Shown: positions 4,757 to 31,986 of the stretch, piece after piece
Layout: every line of letters begins with the position of its first letter
Numbering within the stretch: position 1 is the stretch's first letter
Position numbers and translations under genes: made by a program
The notes under the pieces: model-generated
Database searches by the model: none
What the model was told of the DNA's origin: nothing
What the model saw: only the letters and a program-made list of their open reading frames with translations
DNA from: Spartinivicinus marinus
Lineage (GTDB): Bacteria; Pseudomonadota; Gammaproteobacteria; Pseudomonadales; Zooshikellaceae
Assembly (NCBI RefSeq): GCF_026309355.1
Contig: NZ_JAPJZK010000001.1
Location: 1,116,001 to 1,180,000 of the forward strand
Reading direction: 5' to 3'
Length of the DNA: 64,000 bases

Positions 4757-5503
4757 GTGGATGCAACTAAAAGAGCTTATAACAAAGATTTTTTCCTAGA
4801 GTTTTTGGGAGATACTTTGATTATTACTGACAAAAAGAGTAAAACACAGCCTCGTAAGGTCTTTTGGAGTGACTTAGAGTATTTGGACTATTCCAAGGAA
4901 GGCAATTTATTTATTAAATTTAAAGGTATCAGTCTAATAACACTACATTACAAGGACGAGTTTTTTGATACAGTACTTTTTGAATGTCTGAAACACAGCA
5001 AAATAGATATAAATAAGAAATTCTTTAAATGTAGAGCAACTACTCATTTTGCTTCAGTTTTATTAGTACTTCTTTTTATTATACCTAATTTGACTTATTC
5101 GCTTGTAGAATATTTTGTAAATCCTAGTGACATCGTTGCTATTACCTTAGTAGGAATTAGCATCATCGTGATGATTTTTTTTAACTGGTACTTACCTATA
5201 GCTGAAGTGACCGTAGACGATAGACATATAATTATAAACTTCAAGCGTTTTCTTAGAAAAAGAGTAGTTAGATTAAAGGATTTAGATAAAGTTACACTGG
5301 CAACACAATATGTGTCCGTTTCTGACCGAGTAAAATATAAGAGAAGATATAGACACCTACCGCTGCAGCTACTACTAAAAAGTGGTAAGCAGCTTATGTT
5401 ATACCCACAAACACCTGAAGAAATAATACAGTTAGTCTGGACAGTAAGGGACTTCGCTCCGAGTGATGTTGAGATGCGCATAGGCAAAGCGATTAAGACC
5501 TGA
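4757..5503 (+). CDS. Membrane cargo protein with two PH-like halves
   Basis: A 248-residue protein starting with GTG, encoded against the late phage operon between the gp15- and gp14-like genes. Residues 95-119 and 126-147 are hydrophobic and form two membrane segments. The parts on either side look similar in style to bacterial PH-like domains: a strand beginning LIITDKK and followed by VFWSDLEYLD in the N-terminal half, and VDDRHIIINFKRF followed by VRLKDLDKV in the C-terminal half. The gene is clearly more AT-rich than its neighbours. Opposite orientation, composition and insertion between two core genes mark it as a moron that may be expressed in the lysogen. A role at the membrane, such as superinfection exclusion, is a guess. 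Confidence 0.7.
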   Translation: MDATKRAYNKDFFLEFLGDTLIITDKKSKTQPRKVFWSDLEYLDYSKEGNLFIKFKGISLITLHYKDEFFDTVLFECLKHSKIDINKKFFKCRATTHFASVLLVLLFIIPNLTYSLVEYFVNPSDIVAITLVGISIIVMIFFNWYLPIAEVTVDDRHIIINFKRFLRKRVVRLKDLDKVTLATQYVSVSDRVKYKRRYRHLPLQLLLKSGKQLMLYPQTPEEIIQLVWTVRDFAPSDVEMRIGKAIKT

Positions 5504-6045: not shown

Positions 6046-6073
6046 ATATTACTTTTTATATGGAGATTTGGTT

Positions 6074-6454
6074 ATGGATGAATTGGAAGCACAAGTAAAT
6101 GAATTATGTACTGATAAACAGTTAGTTGACATAGTCAAGCCTCCAAGTTCCTATTCTATTAGCGCTTTTATGTCTGAGGCACATAAAGATGTACTTATAA
6201 ATGCAGTTAAAAATACTGTAAAGGCGATGGATAAATGTATTACAAATAATAGTAGAACATTACAAAATGAAATTTCACAGAGTCACTATAAGAATGAAGT
6301 AGGCGAAAATGAGCTTCGCATAATCGGCAACACAGTTAAGAAACTTTGTACAAAAAAAGGGTGGAGTGTAATTGTGACCTATAAGGAATCTCCTAATGAT
6401 ACAACACCTCACTATATAAATTATGTCTTCAAGAAAATTAAATGGGACATTTAA
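6074..6454 (+). CDS. Unknown small cargo protein on the opposite strand
   Basis: A 126-residue soluble protein with no family I recognise. The ATG at 6074 is preferred over a TTG two codons upstream because GGAG at 6062-6065 is correctly spaced. The sequence is Lys-, Asn- and Ser-rich with helical patterning and an ending of alternating strand-like residues (VIVTYKESP, HYINYVFKKIKW). It lies between the gp14- and gp13-like genes but points the other way, and its AT content is high. It is best read as a lysogeny-expressed accessory gene. Its stop is 11 bases from the convergent gp13-like stop. Confidence 0.6.
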   Translation: MDELEAQVNELCTDKQLVDIVKPPSSYSISAFMSEAHKDVLINAVKNTVKAMDKCITNNSRTLQNEISQSHYKNEVGENELRIIGNTVKKLCTKKGWSVIVTYKESPNDTTPHYINYVFKKIKWDI

Positions 6455-6464
6455 ATATTCAAGC

Positions 6465-6914
6465 CTATTCGGACATGCTTGAAGAAAAAGAAAATATTTG
6501 AAATGTATTAGTGCCAAAAACCCCAAAGGCGCCTAAAGTAGCTCCTAAATATTCAAGCCAAGATATGGCTACTGTATTTTTAGTAGAAACAGCATTCGTA
6601 AGGTAGCCATATTTATTTAACCAGTTATTTATGTATTTTTTTCCTAGCTTACATAAAGCCATGCCCTTATTTTCCAATTCTGCACTACCAAGGAGCCAAG
6701 GAATAGCTTGTCCGTCCTGCTCAGCAACGCCAAACATAGCAATAGGCTTTCCATTTTTCCATGCCGTGTAACACTCCAGGCCCCAGTTTAGTCCACGTAA
6801 AAGGGCATCTAATGGCTTACTTCCAAGGGCTTCTAGCTCGTCTAAATCTTGCTGTCGTAACCTTGAAGCCAATAAATAGCAATCACTTTTATCTGTTTCT
6901 CTAATTTCTATCAA
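6465..6914 (-). CDS. gp13-like protein (internal virion protein A, acetyltransferase-like fold)
   Basis: A 149-residue protein beginning MIEIRETDKSDCYLLASRL, followed by features typical of phage gp13 proteins: the DELEALGS segment, a WNGL/WGLE-type region with ECYTAWKNGKPIAMFGV and a WLLGS turn. These proteins resemble N-acetyltransferases in fold. In T7 the protein is needed for correct virion core assembly. The gene sits in the expected place upstream of the gp14-like gene. Confidence 0.8.
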   Translation of the reverse strand: MIEIRETDKSDCYLLASRLRQQDLDELEALGSKPLDALLRGLNWGLECYTAWKNGKPIAMFGVAEQDGQAIPWLLGSAELENKGMALCKLGKKYINNWLNKYGYLTNAVSTKNTVAISWLEYLGATLGAFGVFGTNTFQIFSFSSSMSE

Positions 6915-7020
6915 ATAAGTATTCCTCTTAATAATTATATAACTTTTATTTCTCTTATTGATGTTTGGCTGCTTTATATTACACTTAGTTGAGATACCCT
7001 ATCTATGGTCGTATTCCGAC

Positions 7021-7344
7021 ATGCCATGTAAATTGCGATATAAAGTAATAAATGAGATAACACATGTATTTCTTACTGGAGAATTGACTCAAAGCATTAA
7101 ATCTAACCTGAGTAATAGTATTGAAAAAATAATAACACACTGCCCCAAAATTATTCACCTAGATATTACAGGTATTAAGTACATTGACTCTGCGGGCATC
7201 GGTGAATTATTAGTTATTCATTCCATGCTTTATAAACGTGATGGTAGGCTTGTTATAGTTAACCCATCCCCTGAATGCAAAGAAATATTAAATACTATTC
7301 TTCGCAATATTATTGAAATAAAAACTTCTGAGAGTGTTACATAG
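7021..7344 (+). CDS. STAS-domain protein (anti-sigma factor antagonist type)
   Basis: From ATG 7021 the product is 107 residues and covers one complete STAS domain, the fold of SpoIIAA and RsbV. The opening strand ends in VFLTGEL, a central strand reads IIHLDITGIKYID, and the signature is DSAGIGELL. Ser57 occupies the position that partner kinases phosphorylate in this family. An upstream ATG at 6961 would add 20 residues that do not look like STAS. The gene runs against the phage operon and ends 2 bases from the TTAA target of the IS element. No matching kinase or phosphatase gene is nearby. Proteins of this type usually act by binding a switch kinase that controls a sigma factor or a signalling pathway. 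A role in changing host signalling during lysogeny is inference. Confidence 0.8.
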   Translation: MPCKLRYKVINEITHVFLTGELTQSIKSNLSNSIEKIITHCPKIIHLDITGIKYIDSAGIGELLVIHSMLYKRDGRLVIVNPSPECKEILNTILRNIIEIKTSESVT

Positions 7345-7350
7345 AATTAA

Positions 7351-9194
7351 CTATATAGTGCCTGACAGAAAAGTAGTCTAGTTTGCCAGTTGAAGGGGCA
7401 ACTATTTTGGTCTTATAAGTTAATATTACTCATTTATGACTGTTTTTGACTTGGGCATATAAAATAAGGTTGTTTTTTGATCAAGCTTCTTTAGAATCGT
7501 CTTTTCACAGACAGCCAAACCTAGCCAGTTAGGCAAAGGCTCACTGGAAAATTATTTTAAATCTCAGTTAAGGACTATTAAGCTGCTTTTTTACGTATTC
7601 TTTTGGCTTGACGGTATTGCTCCTCTTTTTCTTGTTTATACAATAAGGCACCTAACTTTTGGATATTTCGTGCTAATACAGCAAATGAAACGTAACGCCT
7701 GAAGCCATTAATACCGCTATCTGGACATCGGTCAAGGCCATGTACTTCAAGCGCATTAATAGCAGACTCAACCGCTGAGTGCTGCTTTCTTGCTTTTTTG
7801 AAAGCCTCATCGTTTTCACGTTCTGTTTCCTTTTTTGATAAACGTCCTTTTTTAGGCAGCACTACCCGATTTAATTCTTCGGCCAACTTCAACTGATTCT
7901 CAGGTGAATGAAACCCTTTATCAAAACTGCACTGGTTGAGCTCAGGGAATTTAGCTTTGGTTGCTCTGATCATGACGATGGCAACATCAACATCTTGCTC
8001 TTTTTCCATCACACGATGGTGAAGAATAAAGCCATGCTGACATTCCATAACACACACTTTAATACCTAATTCCACTGGTACCCCTGCTTTCCCTTTGCTC
8101 ACCCACTCAGTGTGAGGTTGAAATATTGAGTAAACTTTTTCATCAGCTGGGACTTTTTCATCTTCGACTACTCGCCTGTGAATTTGCGACACCTGCCGTT
8201 TAGCATGAGAAAGATTGTTGGCAATATTTCGTAATAACCAAATCGGGGCTGCTATGGCTTTAAGCTTATCCAATGTGAGTTCAGCTTTATCAATAAACCA
8301 TTGCGCTTTATTCAGATAGTTGATATGTGTCTCACGTTTCTTGTCATCGGCATTTTTTGCTTTTGATTGGTTGCTTTGCCTTGCCTGATTAAAGCATTTT
8401 TTAAGTGACTTCAGATTGTGCCTATGTTGTCGCCAATCACTTAAATGGTAGTTTTCGCCCATATCAGCTAGTTGATTAATCACTTTTCTCATTGCATCCC
8501 ATAATAAACTGATATCAGTGGGATAATGAACAGCTGTTTCTACCACAAATGAGTCACAACGCCCTTCAAGGCTTGCTTCTTCGTTTTTTTTTAACAGTTT
8601 ATGCCCTGTCTCGACGACAACTGTGTTAATTTTGTCCAGAATTTCTGGGGTCAAAAGAGAGACGTTATCTTTTATGGTCTGCAAGTGATATTCTGTCAGA
8701 TCTTCCCAATTGACACCATGCCCTAACATCGCTCGAATAGTTCGATGCTGATTCACTAATTCATGCAAACGATCATAGTCACAATTTAAGTTGATGCGCA
8801 AAACCCCCATCACCAGTATTTTCCAAAGTTCCATGCCTGGCCTTCCAAGTCTTGGATTCGTTTTACCCACTATAGACTCCTCTAAAATAGTGAATACCTG
8901 CTCTCTAACTTCGGGTGTAATATAAATGTACTGTAATCCCTTTAACAATTGAGGCACATCATCTCTAGACTTCGGGTCAAACTTGATCTCGGTAATATCT
9001 GTTTGGCCGAATTGAAGTTGTGGGTTTTGGACTTGCCTCATATCGTATTCTCCGCGAAGTTTGGCTGGTTTTAACTAAAAACCTAGGCCGATTCATTTTT
9101 ATGAGGACTTAATATAGCAATCTTCGATGACGGATTTATGATGAATTATCTTATTTATCAATCAGTTATGATTTTTCGGTCAAGCACTATATAG
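7351..9194 (-). mobile_element. IS element with DDE transposase (ISNCY-like), 1844 bp
   Basis: Imperfect terminal inverted repeats bound the element: CTATATAGTGCCTGAC starting at 7351 and its counterpart CTATATAGTGCTTGAC read inward from 9194. They match at 21 of 23 positions. TTAA is present directly outside both ends (7347-7350 and 9195-9198), as expected for a 4-bp target duplication. Because TTAA is itself palindromic, it could instead be part of the repeats. The single gene inside is the transposase. Insertion occurred in the few bases between the stop of the STAS gene and the stop of the tail gene, so neither gene is broken. Confidence 0.88.
7578..9041 (-). CDS. IS transposase, ISNCY-like DDE family
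   Basis: A 487-residue protein. The start MRQVQNPQLQFGQTDITEI and the block GRPGMELWKILVMGVLR are typical of transposases grouped as ISNCY. Candidate catalytic acids are Asp in EGRCDSFVVETAVHYPTD, Asp in SFDKGFHSPENQ and Glu in HSAVESAINALEVHG. A cysteine-containing HGLDRCPD motif lies near the end. The frame is intact from start to stop, so the element may still be active. It lies wholly inside the terminal repeats. Confidence 0.88.
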   Translation of the reverse strand: MRQVQNPQLQFGQTDITEIKFDPKSRDDVPQLLKGLQYIYITPEVREQVFTILEESIVGKTNPRLGRPGMELWKILVMGVLRINLNCDYDRLHELVNQHRTIRAMLGHGVNWEDLTEYHLQTIKDNVSLLTPEILDKINTVVVETGHKLLKKNEEASLEGRCDSFVVETAVHYPTDISLLWDAMRKVINQLADMGENYHLSDWRQHRHNLKSLKKCFNQARQSNQSKAKNADDKKRETHINYLNKAQWFIDKAELTLDKLKAIAAPIWLLRNIANNLSHAKRQVSQIHRRVVEDEKVPADEKVYSIFQPHTEWVSKGKAGVPVELGIKVCVMECQHGFILHHRVMEKEQDVDVAIVMIRATKAKFPELNQCSFDKGFHSPENQLKLAEELNRVVLPKKGRLSKKETERENDEAFKKARKQHSAVESAINALEVHGLDRCPDSGINGFRRYVSFAVLARNIQKLGALLYKQEKEEQYRQAKRIRKKAA

Positions 9195-11960
9195 TTAAAT
9201 TCGTTGATTCCTTTTGTAAAATCGAGCTGTCCACTGTGCCGCCTGAAATGTAAGTGGTAAATGTGAATCAGAGTGAAGCGCTATTTTTACCTTGCTTGCC
9301 TCTGACTGGATATTAAAAGAGAACTTGCCGCTTTCAATGGGCACCCGTGAAATACGGTTTCTAGTGGACCCAATAAGGCGACCTGTAAATGTGTAGCTTT
9401 GCTCTGGTCTGGCTTCAGGTTCGACGGATGCCTGAAAGAACCCACTGTCAACGTAGGACACCGTAAAGCGCTTAAGCTGCAAACGACCATCTAAAATAGC
9501 TACCTTATTCCCATCAGTTGCTACCTGTTCAGAAAAGAGATAATAAAAGCGGTAAGGTATGCCAATGTAGCAGTCCTGCTTAGCGCCACCAGCAAAGAAT
9601 GCAGTTAACCTGTCGCCTTCATAAATGTTGCCCTCAATATCTACGGCTCGTGTCCTGTTATCCTGATATGGCCTGCTGCCACCTTTAGGAATAAAGCAGC
9701 GTCTATCCAAATTTATTTCTGTCGGGAACGAGCGTGAAGAGGGCTCATTAATCTGTGTTAACGTGATGCGTTCCAGGCACACACCATCTGTCCTGTCGAT
9801 AACTAAAATTATGTTCGACTCCATAAAAGAAGCTGCCAGAATAACGCCGTCAACCTCCCAGCGGGACCAAGAGCTTTGTAGCTTTTCGTTCCCTTGCCAG
9901 TAGTAGTTATATACGTAGAGTGAGCTTGGGTCCTGGTCTGTGACAGTAAGTAGCATATCCTCGTTTGAAGAAGCCGACAGGTGCCTTACGCTGCCTTTAA
10001 TATACGTCGGGCAATGTGAAGTAATATCAGCAGCGTCATTAACCTTACTTTCAGGGTCCACGTAATATTCCCTTATACCTGCTGCATTACCACGTCTTGT
10101 GGAGAAATAAACGTTCTTACCAGCACCTACAGGCTTAGCTTTAAGCTCACACTCAAAACGTGTTGTAACATCGACAGAAACTTCTTCTGCTGTTAATCGG
10201 TCTTGCCCACGAATAATAAATTGGGTTAAATCCGAGAATAATAAAAGAGTCTCATTAAAAGGGACTGCATGACGTAATAAGGATACTGTGTCATTGGTTA
10301 CAGCAATATCTATCGGGTTGGTGTCCAGCATTTGAACTACTGTTGCAGGGTAGAAATTATAATAGGACCCAAGCTCACTAAAAATAATATTCTCATCTGA
10401 GAGTAAACCAAGCCTATTTTTAAAGAAGAAAATATCACTAATGGGCTTATTGATAAATGAGGGTTCAGGTGCTGTGTCCTCATCACCAGCCTTTCTTGCG
10501 TTCCAATCGATAGCTTCAAAAGTAAATGTTCCGTCAGCATTGGACACTAAACGGTGCGGCATAGTTTGATAAGATGGACGCCTATTTAATCCTGGCTTAG
10601 CTACTTCAACCCATGAGCCCGACGTTCTTTCTCCTTTAGTATTTTCTTGATACTGCACATAATAATCATCATCAGCTACGCCATTTTCGCCAGCCACCTT
10701 AATTGTGAAACCGTGGAAACAAGTGGCGGGTAAATGGGTAAATGATTGGACACGGCCTTTACAAGCAAAAATAGCCTTATCACCTAAGCTGTCGCTGCAA
10801 GTTAACGTAAAGTCTGCGTTAGCATTTTTTGCAGTAATTGATATGACATTATCCTTTTGTGCCACTGTAAAAGAAGCACTTAGTTTTTTACTTAACTGTG
10901 AATACAGTCCTTCAGTAATCGCTACAGTAGAAATTTCCGTTCTATTTTTATCGCTTGTTTTAACTTGTCCTTGAAGAACACCATTAATATTAACATTATA
11001 TGTTGTCCCGTAGTCGCCCACACGAACATGCACAATACCCATTTTATTTGTAGGCGTTGGCGCTGGAAGAATATCGCCTGTCTCACTCCTATACCCAATT
11101 AGGCGAGTACTTGTCGTGCTCCTGACAATCCCGCTAGTTTGCTTGTAGGTACACCTTGGGTTTGTCTTCTCTGTAATCCTCTCGACGCCCTCCCGCTTAT
11201 CTCTGTAATACGTGCGGGTATCCCAAGTGAGGTAACTTGTAGCGCTCTCGTCGACTACTGGGAACGGCTGCTGACCACTATTTAAGGGTATTTCGACAGC
11301 ATGGCCGTTATTAACTACGTGAAGCCCTGTGTCATCTCTAAGCTTAGCTGCAAGGTACGAAGCGAAACCCGAGGCACCACCATTCTCGGCTGAGTAGGAA
11401 TAGGTACGGCCACCAATGCGACATTTATAAAGTGACCAACAACGAAACCATTTTTCCCTTTTCCACAGCTCATCTTTGTAAGCTGGCACGATAGGCGTAA
11501 TTGTTATTGTTTGGTATCGCTGGTTAACCGGCGTGAGCTTTATATTCTTGGTTGGGTCGTAGCTTCTGACTATACGCTCTTTGTTAACTATAAAAGTGTA
11601 GTCGGCTACTGTGACAGCTGAAAAGGCTGTTGATGGGTCATGTGCTTTTAAATAAGTTACGCCACTTGGCTTTTTAACTGTCCGCTCTTTTCCGTTTAAA
11701 TCAAAAACACGAATATCACCGTTAGCAATGACAGCAATATATTTTTCCCATTTATCTCTGTTTATTGTGTGGATAAAAGAGCCGGTAAAACTAGAGCTAG
11801 ATATTCTTGCTAAGTGCTCCGTTGGTGGTCTTTTTTGCAGCCCATAGACTACACTAGATAGGCCATTTATCTGTTCCTCACATTGGGTCGGCAAACGGAT
11901 GCCCGGCGGTTGCTGCGAGACTCCATTAATTAAGTTAGGTATTGGTTTTTCAATTAGCAC
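9195..11960 (-). CDS. Tail tubular protein B (gp12-like, nozzle)
   Basis: A 921-residue protein. The N-terminus IPNLINGVSQQPPGIRLPTQ is the hallmark of podovirus tail tubular protein B, which forms the tail nozzle below the gatekeeper ring. Later segments such as FFKNRLGLLSDENIIFSE and TDLTQFIIRGQD-like sequence also match this family. It is longer than T7 gp12 (about 790 residues). The gene starts one base into the stop of the gp11-like gene, suggesting translational coupling. Its TAA stop lies at the edge of the IS insertion but is intact, and would have been so before insertion. Confidence 0.92.
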   Translation of the reverse strand: MLIEKPIPNLINGVSQQPPGIRLPTQCEEQINGLSSVVYGLQKRPPTEHLARISSSSFTGSFIHTINRDKWEKYIAVIANGDIRVFDLNGKERTVKKPSGVTYLKAHDPSTAFSAVTVADYTFIVNKERIVRSYDPTKNIKLTPVNQRYQTITITPIVPAYKDELWKREKWFRCWSLYKCRIGGRTYSYSAENGGASGFASYLAAKLRDDTGLHVVNNGHAVEIPLNSGQQPFPVVDESATSYLTWDTRTYYRDKREGVERITEKTNPRCTYKQTSGIVRSTTSTRLIGYRSETGDILPAPTPTNKMGIVHVRVGDYGTTYNVNINGVLQGQVKTSDKNRTEISTVAITEGLYSQLSKKLSASFTVAQKDNVISITAKNANADFTLTCSDSLGDKAIFACKGRVQSFTHLPATCFHGFTIKVAGENGVADDDYYVQYQENTKGERTSGSWVEVAKPGLNRRPSYQTMPHRLVSNADGTFTFEAIDWNARKAGDEDTAPEPSFINKPISDIFFFKNRLGLLSDENIIFSELGSYYNFYPATVVQMLDTNPIDIAVTNDTVSLLRHAVPFNETLLLFSDLTQFIIRGQDRLTAEEVSVDVTTRFECELKAKPVGAGKNVYFSTRRGNAAGIREYYVDPESKVNDAADITSHCPTYIKGSVRHLSASSNEDMLLTVTDQDPSSLYVYNYYWQGNEKLQSSWSRWEVDGVILAASFMESNIILVIDRTDGVCLERITLTQINEPSSRSFPTEINLDRRCFIPKGGSRPYQDNRTRAVDIEGNIYEGDRLTAFFAGGAKQDCYIGIPYRFYYLFSEQVATDGNKVAILDGRLQLKRFTVSYVDSGFFQASVEPEARPEQSYTFTGRLIGSTRNRISRVPIESGKFSFNIQSEASKVKIALHSDSHLPLTFQAAQWTARFYKRNQRI

Positions 11961-27798: not shown

Positions 27799-30522
27799 CT
27801 ATCCGAAGCAGTATGGGGAGTTGAGGATTTCTTGCGGGTCTAAATTGCCCTTTATAGGAGTCATTGGCAAATGCGCTCCTTCTACATCTTTAACTCGCTT
27901 CGTTAACTGCTCTTTTAAATCTTCAAAGTGGTCTTTCGCTGTATATAACTTATAAAAAGTCTCCTTAATATTTTCATACAACTTTTGAGTTTGGCTTGGT
28001 AATGTACCGAATGAGTCGTGTATTAAGGCAAAATTTTTAAACTCACTCTTATTTACTACCATCATTAAATGTGTTGCATCTAATGAGTGAACAAAGTTAG
28101 GCGCTATTGCTGAAGCTTGTTTTTCCTTGTCACACTCACTAGTTTCAACTTGGATACGAAAGCGGACTTTTTCGCCTCCTAAAAAGCTAGTTTGTGTTCT
28201 TTTATCTTCAGTTTTCCAATAATTCTGCTCCACCAGGAAACCTAAAGGCGTTTGCCAATGGAGAGGCTTACCGTTTTCTGCTGCTACTTTTGCAGCCTCC
28301 TGTAACCACTTCATTCCTTCAGCAGCTTTGACCACAGTCCCCGTAACAGCTTTATATAAAAGCTTTGCGAGTAAGCTAGCAGACAGGGCTTTATACTTGC
28401 CCTCATCCCATATAAGGGAGTATACAGGCGCAATTATCCCGTCAAAGGTCTCATTGCTCCCTCCCTCGTCCATGGCTTTCTTGATTACCCTGACCTTTAG
28501 TTGCTCTGTAAAGCCATATTGTTCACTACCGTAAGCGAAAGTCATAACAGCATTTTTAGCTAATTTACGGCTTAATTTTCCGGTCTTTTTGTCGTACCCG
28601 AAATTAAGCCAAGCGAAGGCTGCAATTATCCTGTGGTAAGTTTCGTACGCCTCCTGCTCTGGTGCAATTCGCTTAGCTAATGTTCCATCTTTCTTTTTCT
28701 TTTCTTTTTTAGCTATTTCTTTCCACTCAGCAAAAGGTTTTTTAATTCGAAACTTACTTTTATTTTTATTATAAATTTCCTCCATTGCATTTTCGGCGTG
28801 TTTAATTATCCCTGGGTAATCTAGGTCTTCCCAACCAGGACCAACAATATTAATTAATTCAGGTAAAACCTTATCAATTACAGTTTGGTAAATATCCTGG
28901 GGTTTTTCTGCTGGCATTAAGTTAACCTCTTTCCCTGTCTCCTTGCATCGTAAAGCCATACCTAAATGCTGTAATCCAGAACAAGACCCATCAAGAGCAA
29001 CAGGTATACGAGACACGTGGTCTAAGCCATTCTCAATGTAGCCTTTCCACTCCATCGCAGCGACTACAGCTTGAAAGGGTTTATCAGCATCAGTCCATTG
29101 TCTGAAGTCGTAGGGATTCTCAGCTACACGACAGAGCATTTCTGTATTGGCCTTGGTCCACGCTATACGAGCTGCAAAGCTTTCTTTATCAATCTTATCG
29201 ATTGCCCATACGTTAGCTACATGAACTGCTAGCCAATCGGCGGCTTCTTGAGTCCCCAACTTTTCCCCTTCAGCAAATTGAAGCAGCGCCTTAACATAGT
29301 CAGGGCCTTGCGGAGATAAAGAGCCATTAGTTGCTGAGTAAACACGACCACGAAAACAAAGCTGATGGGGGAAGTATATTTTTTCATAACAAGCGTACTT
29401 CTTAGCAGTCTGCAATATTGAGAGCAGTGTTAAGCGCTTAGATTTATTACTTCGGTTATCTTTATATACCTTGGATGCGTGAGCTTTCCATTTCTTTTTA
29501 GCCTCCTCATTAGTATCAAAGTCTTCAGGAACTTCTCTTGGCTTCTTATCTTTAGCTGGTGGCAGCTTGCCTAGCTCGCTCTCTGTTTCAATAAGGTTAT
29601 CCAACAAGTCCAGTATTTCTGAGTTGATTCTCCAGGCTGTACTTTGTGCCTTATTAACCGCTTCGTATACTCCAGGCATTTCTACAGTTTCTAATTTTTC
29701 TAAGAAGGTTTTATTTACTGTTTTAACAAAGGTGAGTGGACGTACATTATTTGTCAGGTATCCTCCGGTAAATGGGTCTTGCCAGGGGAAAGGCTGGACC
29801 ACCATGGGCTGATAAATAGTGGCAATGTCCAGGTGTTTAGCGTTGCATTTACGTATCCACTCTAAGCAGGCTTCAGTTGGCTTTATTGTGTACTCTTGTT
29901 TGTTCTTACCCAATTCTAAGGCCACTTCAATGATTCCAAGCTTACTTACACATAGCTCTATAAGCACTGTGCCTACTGATGTGTTTATATCCTTGTCCCA
30001 TTCATGTAACGCAGTACCGTGTTGTTCAGCCATGTAAGTCGCTGTGTATTGCTTGCGGTGATATTGAGAGCGCTTATTGGCACAGGTAAGGATGCCTTTA
30101 TGTAATATCTTGTCCTCCTGCGACATGTTACGCATAGCAACTTCAAGGCTTAATGCCTCAGCTATTTTTATTGCAGTGGCACTCATCAAGGTCATTTTAG
30201 AGATACTGTCAACAAGCATACGTAAAGTGATGTAGGCTGCTGTACGTGCATCTAACATTTTTAAATAAGGCAGAGCTTTATGGTGTCTTCCGGGTCCTTT
30301 TCTTGGTGCTTCAACCCATTCTGTAATTGCAGCGGCCAGCTCATCTGTCATTCCTGAAACAAGGCGGTTGCCGTATGCCGTGTTCCCTTCTTCTCCTCGT
30401 TCTACAGCACGTAGCGTACTTTTAATGTAACTATCACGTCCTTCCTGAGCCATGTCAGACTCAAGCTTTACTTGGTCTTCTTCAGTGCCTAAAACGCGCT
30501 TAATGTTAACGTATTTATTCAT
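27799..30522 (-). CDS. Single-subunit phage RNA polymerase (T7 gp1-like)
   Basis: A 907-residue enzyme, close to T7 RNA polymerase (883). Catalytic Asp511 lies in VALDGSCSGLQHLG and Asp836 in ALIHDSFGTLPS. The nucleotide-binding helix reads LAKNAVMTFAYGSEQYGF with the expected Lys and Tyr. FVHSLDATHL precedes the second Asp. It transcribes the phage genes from phage-specific promoters. TTTAAGGAAAGAAGC supplies a good ribosome site before ATG 30522. It is the rightmost recognisable phage gene, which fits its early-gene role. Confidence 0.97.
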   Translation of the reverse strand: MNKYVNIKRVLGTEEDQVKLESDMAQEGRDSYIKSTLRAVERGEEGNTAYGNRLVSGMTDELAAAITEWVEAPRKGPGRHHKALPYLKMLDARTAAYITLRMLVDSISKMTLMSATAIKIAEALSLEVAMRNMSQEDKILHKGILTCANKRSQYHRKQYTATYMAEQHGTALHEWDKDINTSVGTVLIELCVSKLGIIEVALELGKNKQEYTIKPTEACLEWIRKCNAKHLDIATIYQPMVVQPFPWQDPFTGGYLTNNVRPLTFVKTVNKTFLEKLETVEMPGVYEAVNKAQSTAWRINSEILDLLDNLIETESELGKLPPAKDKKPREVPEDFDTNEEAKKKWKAHASKVYKDNRSNKSKRLTLLSILQTAKKYACYEKIYFPHQLCFRGRVYSATNGSLSPQGPDYVKALLQFAEGEKLGTQEAADWLAVHVANVWAIDKIDKESFAARIAWTKANTEMLCRVAENPYDFRQWTDADKPFQAVVAAMEWKGYIENGLDHVSRIPVALDGSCSGLQHLGMALRCKETGKEVNLMPAEKPQDIYQTVIDKVLPELINIVGPGWEDLDYPGIIKHAENAMEEIYNKNKSKFRIKKPFAEWKEIAKKEKKKKDGTLAKRIAPEQEAYETYHRIIAAFAWLNFGYDKKTGKLSRKLAKNAVMTFAYGSEQYGFTEQLKVRVIKKAMDEGGSNETFDGIIAPVYSLIWDEGKYKALSASLLAKLLYKAVTGTVVKAAEGMKWLQEAAKVAAENGKPLHWQTPLGFLVEQNYWKTEDKRTQTSFLGGEKVRFRIQVETSECDKEKQASAIAPNFVHSLDATHLMMVVNKSEFKNFALIHDSFGTLPSQTQKLYENIKETFYKLYTAKDHFEDLKEQLTKRVKDVEGAHLPMTPIKGNLDPQEILNSPYCFG

Positions 30523-31986
30523 GCTTCTTTCCTTAAATAGTTAGTTGAATCCCAATAAAGGGATGATTTGGGCGTAGGAATGCCCTGAGCGCTCATTGGA
30601 GCCCCATAATTTTGTGGTCAGCATTTATTCAGAGACAAAGAGAGCACATAAAGATGCGCACACAAGATGCCTCGCTATTATGTCCCGCAAATGGGATATA
30701 TCGGATACTACTATACCCACAACAAGACTGTCATGAATATTTAATCACAGTGTCGTATATGAGTAAGACAGTAAGGGTAGATAGGTAAAGCTAACAGGCA
30801 GGTATAGCTAGATATAAAGCTATAAATCTAGTGGTGTTCATCTGCTAACGTAAGCGGATGAGACGGACTTGTGCCAGGGTGAAGGGAAGACGCCTCATGT
30901 CGCATTATGGTATGTAACAAGGAATATTTAGACTAACAAATGGGATTATTTTTAGATGGCGCAAGAAGTTCTTGCTTATTATTTAGACTATCTTATTTAT
31001 AATTTTAATTGTCTTGTGGGTGCTTTTGGCGGCCACTGGTACACTTTTGTTGTTTATTTTTATTTAGTCCCGGTTAAGAGACTTAAAGCTGATTTAGTAT
31101 TAATTTAACTCAAAGCTACTTCCTATATCTGCACACGAATCTGAATTGGTAGTAAATATTAGGTACCTCCTGTAGAGTTTATTTAGAACTGAAAACTTAA
31201 TTTTTATATAAAACCACACTCCTATATAGTAAGATTTATGACAATTTAGCTACAAAAATAACAGCACATCATTAGACATAATGGTGCCCCTCCATAACAT
31301 CAGAAAAAACTAATAAAGAAGAGAAAATTTTTGTCTCAAAAATTCGGCTTACTTTTGTATCAGTAATGCTTTACAATTAGATGTGGATGCGGAAGAAAGT
31401 TGAGGAAAGGCAGTAAGTTATTGATTTTTGGGCAAAATTCTTAATTCGGGAACTACTGTAAGACAAACTTTGGCGTAATAAATTCCACACAAAGTAAAGC
31501 CTTAAGAACTGACCAATATTGTTAGCCAGCGGCTACACTCTGCCCAAAAATGTGACAAATGTCAAAAAATTATTGTGAAATGACGCAGGATATTTTGTAT
31601 TTCGTCTGTTTTGCTTGTGGAAAAATCAATTTTCCAACTTATCTGGCTACAAGCCTGCTATCAATCGTAGCTATGAAGCCAATGTAAACACTCTGCTAAG
31701 AAAAACAATTGCATCGGTTTTCAATATAAAATGAAACAAAAATCAGTGATTTTACTTACATAAAAAAACAGACAGCTATATTTCTTAAAGAAATACAGAC
31801 TGCCTGTATCCGGGGAGACTCAATGAAAACCAGATATTGCTTACCAATAAGGTGGCTTGAAGGATAGGTAGTGCTATAAGAACACCTTATCAACTATATC
31901 TTGGTAAAAAGTAAGACTGACTGTCGTTAAGTTAGTTCCCACATAAAAATAAAAGAAGCCATTTTTTTGCTATCAGCCATCTTATC
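30523..31986. other. 1.46-kb gene-free stretch spanning the prophage end
   Basis: No convincing gene is present. The first 100 bases hold an ATCCC/GGGAT dyad and the shared TGAGCGCT sequence. At 30808-30898 there are three small hairpins, two of which cannot form together. A 50-codon frame at 30956-31108 (MAQEVLAYYLDYLIYNF...) lacks a ribosome site and is doubtful. Nested inverted repeats span 31425-31550. At 31754-31813 two short palindromes precede a 14-codon frame at 31823 with GGGGAGA before its ATG. The chromosome-phage junction should lie here, but no tRNA gene or obvious core repeat is visible. Confidence 0.6.

Follow-up and report, generated by a model that had tools for sequence, protein, structure and literature searches.

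A small gene carried between two virion genes of a T7-like prophage encodes a single-domain STAS protein, here called STAS-A. We favor, at a probability of roughly 0.55, the reading that it is a moron expressed during lysogeny, whose anti-sigma-antagonist-like product plugs into a host partner switch controlling RpoS, FlgM, or c-di-GMP. The window analyzed is a 64,000-bp stretch (G000:C1:1116001-1180000) of a 6.88-Mb genome; its relevant features are listed in Table 1.

Table 1. Coordinates of STAS-A and of the prophage features discussed in the text (window positions unless a contig is named)
Feature	Position	Strand	Remarks
Left 179-bp direct repeat	G000:C1:1103036-1103214		Prophage boundary, beyond the window
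Right 179-bp direct repeat	31447..31625	n/a	Prophage boundary
T7-type RNA polymerase of the prophage	27799..30522	(-)	phrog_414, E = 1.4e-236
gp13-type internal virion protein	6465..6914	(-)	5′ neighbor of the STAS slot; phrog_308, E = 1.8e-31
Intergenic region, gp13 start to STAS-A	6915..7020	(+)	TATATT box, weak promoter candidate
STAS-A gene	7021..7344	(+)	107-aa protein, single STAS domain, phospho-acceptor Ser57 (D56-S57-A58-G59)
Insertion sequence	7356..9189	(-)	DDE transposase 7578-9041; core common to all copies
Tail tubular protein B	9195..11960	(-)	3′ neighbor of the STAS slot; phrog_457, E = 2.5e-226
Antisense GC-poor ORF between gp15 and gp14	4757..5503	(+)	248 aa, hydrophobic stretches; likely moron
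Antisense GC-poor ORF between gp14 and gp13	6068..6454	(+)	128 aa; diverged counterpart in the G002 prophage; likely moron
Antisense GC-poor ORF between minus-strand phage genes	19306-19530	(+)	Apparent moron series
Antisense GC-poor ORF between minus-strand phage genes	22155-22469	(+)	Apparent moron series

STAS-A and its prophage

The STAS-A translation begins MPCKLRYKV...IKYIDSAGIGELL... and matches Pfam STAS (PF01740; E = 1.1e-12, 48 bits) above the curated cutoff of 22.6. Against NCBIfam TIGR00377 (ant_ant_sig; E = 8e-13), it scores 48.2 bits, under the cutoff of 53.45, as do the host's own HsbA-like (43.2 bits) and RssC-like (40.1 bits) proteins. Ser57, within D-S-A-G, occupies the position of SpoIIAA Ser58, the site phosphorylated in that protein, and D56, S57, and G59 are invariant in an alignment of nine homologues with identities down to 30%. 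The Pfam match and the motif bear out the single STAS domain and phosphorylatable serine of the original prediction. The start codon at 7021 is supported because every homologue begins there with M-(S/P)-x-x. Comparison with the homologue in an intact prophage of another species of the genus (G002) gave a dN/dS of 0.21 (95%, 0.07 to 0.40), and because the gene is thus under purifying selection, it is not a chance ORF. An AlphaFold model with nine homologues as input (pLDDT 85, pTM 0.79) predicts a SpoIIAA-like fold; Foldseek placed SpoIIAA from SpoIIAB complexes among its top matches (TM 0.84) and also returned TM1442 (TM 0.88) and RsbV from the RsbV/RsbW complex (TM 0.81). Neither the phage STAS proteins nor the other STAS proteins tried had a significant family in PHROGs.

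The surrounding prophage has PHROGs matches to a T7-type RNA polymerase, a major head protein, internal virion proteins, and a tail protein, along with a tyrosine integrase, and is bounded at both ends by perfect 179-bp direct repeats. The RNA polymerase and virion genes uphold the T7-like identity first proposed for the carrier, and the integrase and repeats confirm that it is an integrated, temperate prophage and not a free phage. At 179 bp, the repeats are unusually long for an att core, which suggests that the phage holds a lengthy stretch copied from its target. Next to the prophage integrases of this genome lie PIN-domain genes of toxin-like type, accompanied upstream by small partner genes (L139 9400-10088 and L051 3676-4409); these differ between its two prophages.

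STAS-A runs opposite to the virion genes between which it lies (gp13 and tail tubular protein B) and has a GC content of 31%. Together with four further plus-strand ORFs antisense to phage genes (Table 1), it falls in a GC range of 0.31 to 0.34, compared with 0.36 to 0.53 in 20 minus-strand virion and replication ORFs. None of the four gave a convincing Pfam match, and some have diverged counterparts in sister prophages. The TATATT box lies approximately 40 to 50 nt upstream of the STAS-A ATG and is aligned with TATACT in three homologues; a consensus scan found no full sigma-70 site upstream of the window gene.

Recurrence in one slot and retention in prophage remnants

The slot between gp13 and tail tubular protein B holds STAS genes in three prophages. 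The window prophage has type A; type B, whose product shares 35% identity with the window protein, occupies the second prophage of that genome (L049/L050); and the G002 prophage (L046) has both, in the order A then B. The flanking tail protein is 92 to 98% identical among these prophages, against only about 52% identity for the A proteins, indicating that the STAS cassette is swapped or fast-evolving. The slot is empty in 54 related T7-like contigs that carry both flanking genes, one of them a sister-genus prophage (L057, which is also G004/L054); there, gp13 and tail protein B directly adjoin each other (-61 to +5 bp). The 4764 ORFs of 80 contigs yielded no further STAS. By placement and composition, STAS-A is therefore a moron: an insert between conserved phage genes that is absent in relatives and has its own composition and orientation.

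Searches at wider scales returned little else. Across 369 genomes of the class searched at E 1e-10, the STAS family occurred only in the window's own genome, and in a search of the taxonomic family, all strong matches to the phage STAS were confined to this genus. Scans of IMG/VR with the window STAS-A and B proteins gave no match, a scan with the phage STAS profile gave the G002 prophage as its sole match, and a genome-contig scan with protein A2 found no relative. The only two tblastn matches in the phage database (MT835480 and MT839791) lie beside SpoIIAB- and sigma-factor-like genes, as read by eye, which gives them the look of bacterial spoIIA-type operons within virome scaffolds; they were rejected. 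Within the sets searched, the STAS cargo appears to be confined to prophages of the focal genus.

An insertion sequence (IS) with 26-nt inverted repeats (7347-7372 and 9173-9198) begins about 12 bp 3′ of the STAS-A stop and sits between that stop and the stop of the tail gene. It is one of 8 near-identical full-length copies in the genome, and the seven others match only the core at 7356-9189, a shared segment that excludes STAS-A; carriage of STAS-A as IS cargo is therefore rejected. Loss of a type B gene beneath the IS is likewise not supported, as only about 17 bp separates the STAS-A stop codon from that of the tail gene when the IS is disregarded, a spacing as close as that in the other prophages.

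The second prophage of the window's genome is integrated between cheV and flgA, flanked by perfect 158-bp repeats (L139 7704-7861 and L050 13536-13693), the right one overlapping the flgA ORF where it starts; in G002, a STAS-bearing remnant occupies the cheV-flgA gap. The sister-genus prophage, which has no STAS cassette, has its DNA polymerase split over three frames (L054 10479-12618) and is thus probably defective.

STAS genes persist in three prophage remnants from the few genomes of the genus analyzed. At G002 locus L047, the tail, gp16, gp13, and tail protein B genes are fragments, and STAS-A and STAS-B are open and full-length. Two gp13 fragments are found there (L047 8719-9698), one ahead of each STAS gene, as if two gp13-STAS units had been fused by recombination. 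At G002 locus L048, the remnant between cheV and flgA, STAS-A is intact beside scraps of tail and DNA polymerase genes. In G001 (L053), STAS-B is flanked by a 30-residue tail-protein end and gp13 shards, and the genome contains no matching major capsid gene. G002 also has a related type C copy by recG, near an integrase of the same type. The dN/dS ratios between STAS copies are 0.13 to 0.22, and no upper bound exceeds 0.42. For the terminal branches leading to the remnant copies, the ratios are 0.14 to 0.26, with dN below dS in 945, 932, and 725 of 1000 bootstraps; taken alone, these branches are suggestive of selection, not individually conclusive. Given the open ORFs in remnants and the low dN/dS, selection appears to act for the cell and not the virion, and the survival of intact STAS genes where the rest of the virus has decayed suggests that they are useful to the bacterium.

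Candidate host partners and alternative roles

The host genome encodes two multidomain SpoIIE/HATPase_c_2 kinase/phosphatase proteins of HsbR type. The first, REC-SpoIIE-HATPase_c_2 (HsbR/CrsR-like; G000:C1, about 4940588-4942273), adjoins the HsbA-like STAS gene in the fli operon; the second is a HATPase_c_2-REC-SpoIIE protein (G000:C1, 853551-855116). An RssB/RssC-like pair is also present. None of the genome's PF13581 (HATPase_c_2) and PF07228 (SpoIIE) matches lies inside a prophage, and the PF13581 matches include only larger proteins and no stand-alone RsbW/SpoIIAB-like kinase. The search for RsbW/SpoIIAB-like kinases proposed at the outset thus recovered partner-type kinases in multidomain form and none of the stand-alone kind. 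The second gene (L141 3552-5120; L168/L169) has a STAS neighbor in the sister genus (G003/G004) and none in this genus. That sister-genus STAS is the sole nonphage match of the phage STAS profile in the taxonomic family (E of about 8e-7); its own best matches in the window's genome are other host STAS proteins (L007 and L001), so its tie to the phage STAS is a lead only.

In a tree, the phage STAS sequences group together with 96/96 support, and none of the nine chromosomal STAS proteins tested, the HsbA-like one among them, falls within this clade. Recent capture of a host STAS gene is therefore rejected, and the phage proteins, which are also unlinked to the HsbR-like gene, are not HsbA/CrsA orthologues. 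Because the clade is distant from the chromosomal proteins tested, orthology cannot identify a host target. The switch protein of the original prediction fits the fold, the D-S motif, and the two candidate kinase/phosphatase partners in the host; the tree does not fit a recent copy of a host antagonist.

For the favored partner-switch role, we propose the following mechanism. In a lysogen, host RNA polymerase would transcribe the STAS gene without reliance on the T7-type late program. Unphosphorylated STAS would bind a host GHKL kinase/anti-sigma domain (that of the HsbR/CrsR-like or the HATPase-REC-SpoIIE protein) or else a protein that the cognate host STAS protein itself targets. Once phosphorylated on Ser57, it would be released, and a SpoIIE phosphatase domain would reset it. 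By analogy with HsbR-HsbA and CrsR-CrsA, the extra prophage protein may titrate or bypass the host switch; through this cycle of binding and release, it would therefore bias the switch governing the output of RpoS, FlgM/FliA, or c-di-GMP, and the lysogen could shift in its motile/sessile or stress state. The kinase, target, and phenotype assigned here to the phage STAS are putative.

SpoIIAA-like folds also serve in non-sigma roles (MlaB, SulP, CapS, and VapS), which counts against a sigma reading, and STAS-A, as prophage cargo, belongs to a gene class frequently engaged in phage-phage conflict. It is possible, if unlikely, that STAS-A is such a non-sigma switch, acting as a VapS-like protein-sequestering antitoxin, a CapS-like blocker of an immune operon, or a superinfection-exclusion factor. 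STAS-GHKL pairs govern defense operons and a VapC toxin, and CapS and VapS, like STAS-A, have a STAS domain with a serine, theirs under GHKL kinase control (PMC13373217). PIN-domain genes occur near the integrase in both prophages of the window's genome; however, they are distant from STAS and lie beside their own small AbrB-like upstream partners, as read by eye. CapS moreover carries a winged-helix domain and lies next to a kinase, whereas the 107-residue STAS-A consists of STAS only and has no adjoining CapK-like kinase.

That STAS-A works for the phage, helping it to decide between lysis and lysogeny or to grow lytically, is quite improbable. The position is conserved in the three prophages that still have structural genes, but STAS is antisense to the late genes, is missing both in 54 relatives that carry the same virion genes and in the prophage of the sister genus, and is retained where phage genes have been lost. 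Chance retention of a functionless passenger is less credible still: the gene is short and remnants can be young (an age for which the data give only the broken neighbors), but the dN/dS ratios and the intact ORFs next to shattered neighbors in several independent remnants argue against it. The origin that the original prediction named among its possible refutations, a host fragment delivered by the adjoining IS, can be dismissed almost outright, since, for all the closeness of the IS to the STAS-A stop, its 8 copies share a core without STAS and the slot is occupied without this IS in other prophages.

Relation to known systems

STAS-A resembles SpoIIAA/RsbV of Bacillus in its single STAS domain of about 110 aa, D-S-x-G switch motif, and predicted fold; it differs in its low identity (about 22%), its prophage location, the lack of an adjoining kinase or sigma gene, and its gammaproteobacterial-type host. 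In the HsbR-HsbA and CrsR-CrsA systems, STAS phosphorylation chooses among FlgM/FliA, HsbD, and RpoS outputs, and the host here has the matching REC-SpoIIE-HATPase protein in its fli operon (PMC6482189). STAS-A shares the STAS-only antagonist type of HsbA/CrsA (Pseudomonas/Shewanella), but it belongs to a clade apart from the host HsbA-like protein and is unlinked to the kinase.

Morons that alter host regulation are already known. The ybiA operon of Stenotrophomonas phage DLP4 (BIT20_065-070) is, like the STAS-A insert, reverse-strand, GC-reduced, and located in the virion region; it encodes a protein modeled as an anti-sigma antagonist and is reported to be a moron operon (PMC6469090). The STAS assignment there comes from I-TASSER only, and slot recurrence and retention in remnants do not figure in the description consulted (PMC6469090). 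A phage-borne antagonist is thus not new in kind; new here are the clear STAS sequence homology, the conserved serine, the recurrence in one slot of T7-like prophages, and the retention in remnants. Temperate T7-like phages with an integrase and a MarR-like regulator are also known: LUZ100 and its relatives share with the window prophage a T7-type RNA polymerase and virion genes, a tyrosine integrase, and a MarR-like regulator (PMC10134795). The term "moron" does not occur in the text of the LUZ100 paper (PMC10134795).

A broader and rather doubtful scenario is that successive T7-like prophages seeded the genus with STAS genes that were retained after decay and have become fixtures of the host's partner-switch network, perhaps acting with the HATPase-REC-SpoIIE protein. 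If the favored partner-switch reading is true, a sequence-verified, serine-bearing STAS switch that keeps recurring in a single slot of temperate T7-like prophages and outlives its prophage would show clearly how phages can rewire the partner switches of bacteria. It raises the question of whether a prophage may, by way of a single small phosphoprotein, adjust what its lysogen decides in RpoS, flagellar, or c-di-GMP terms.
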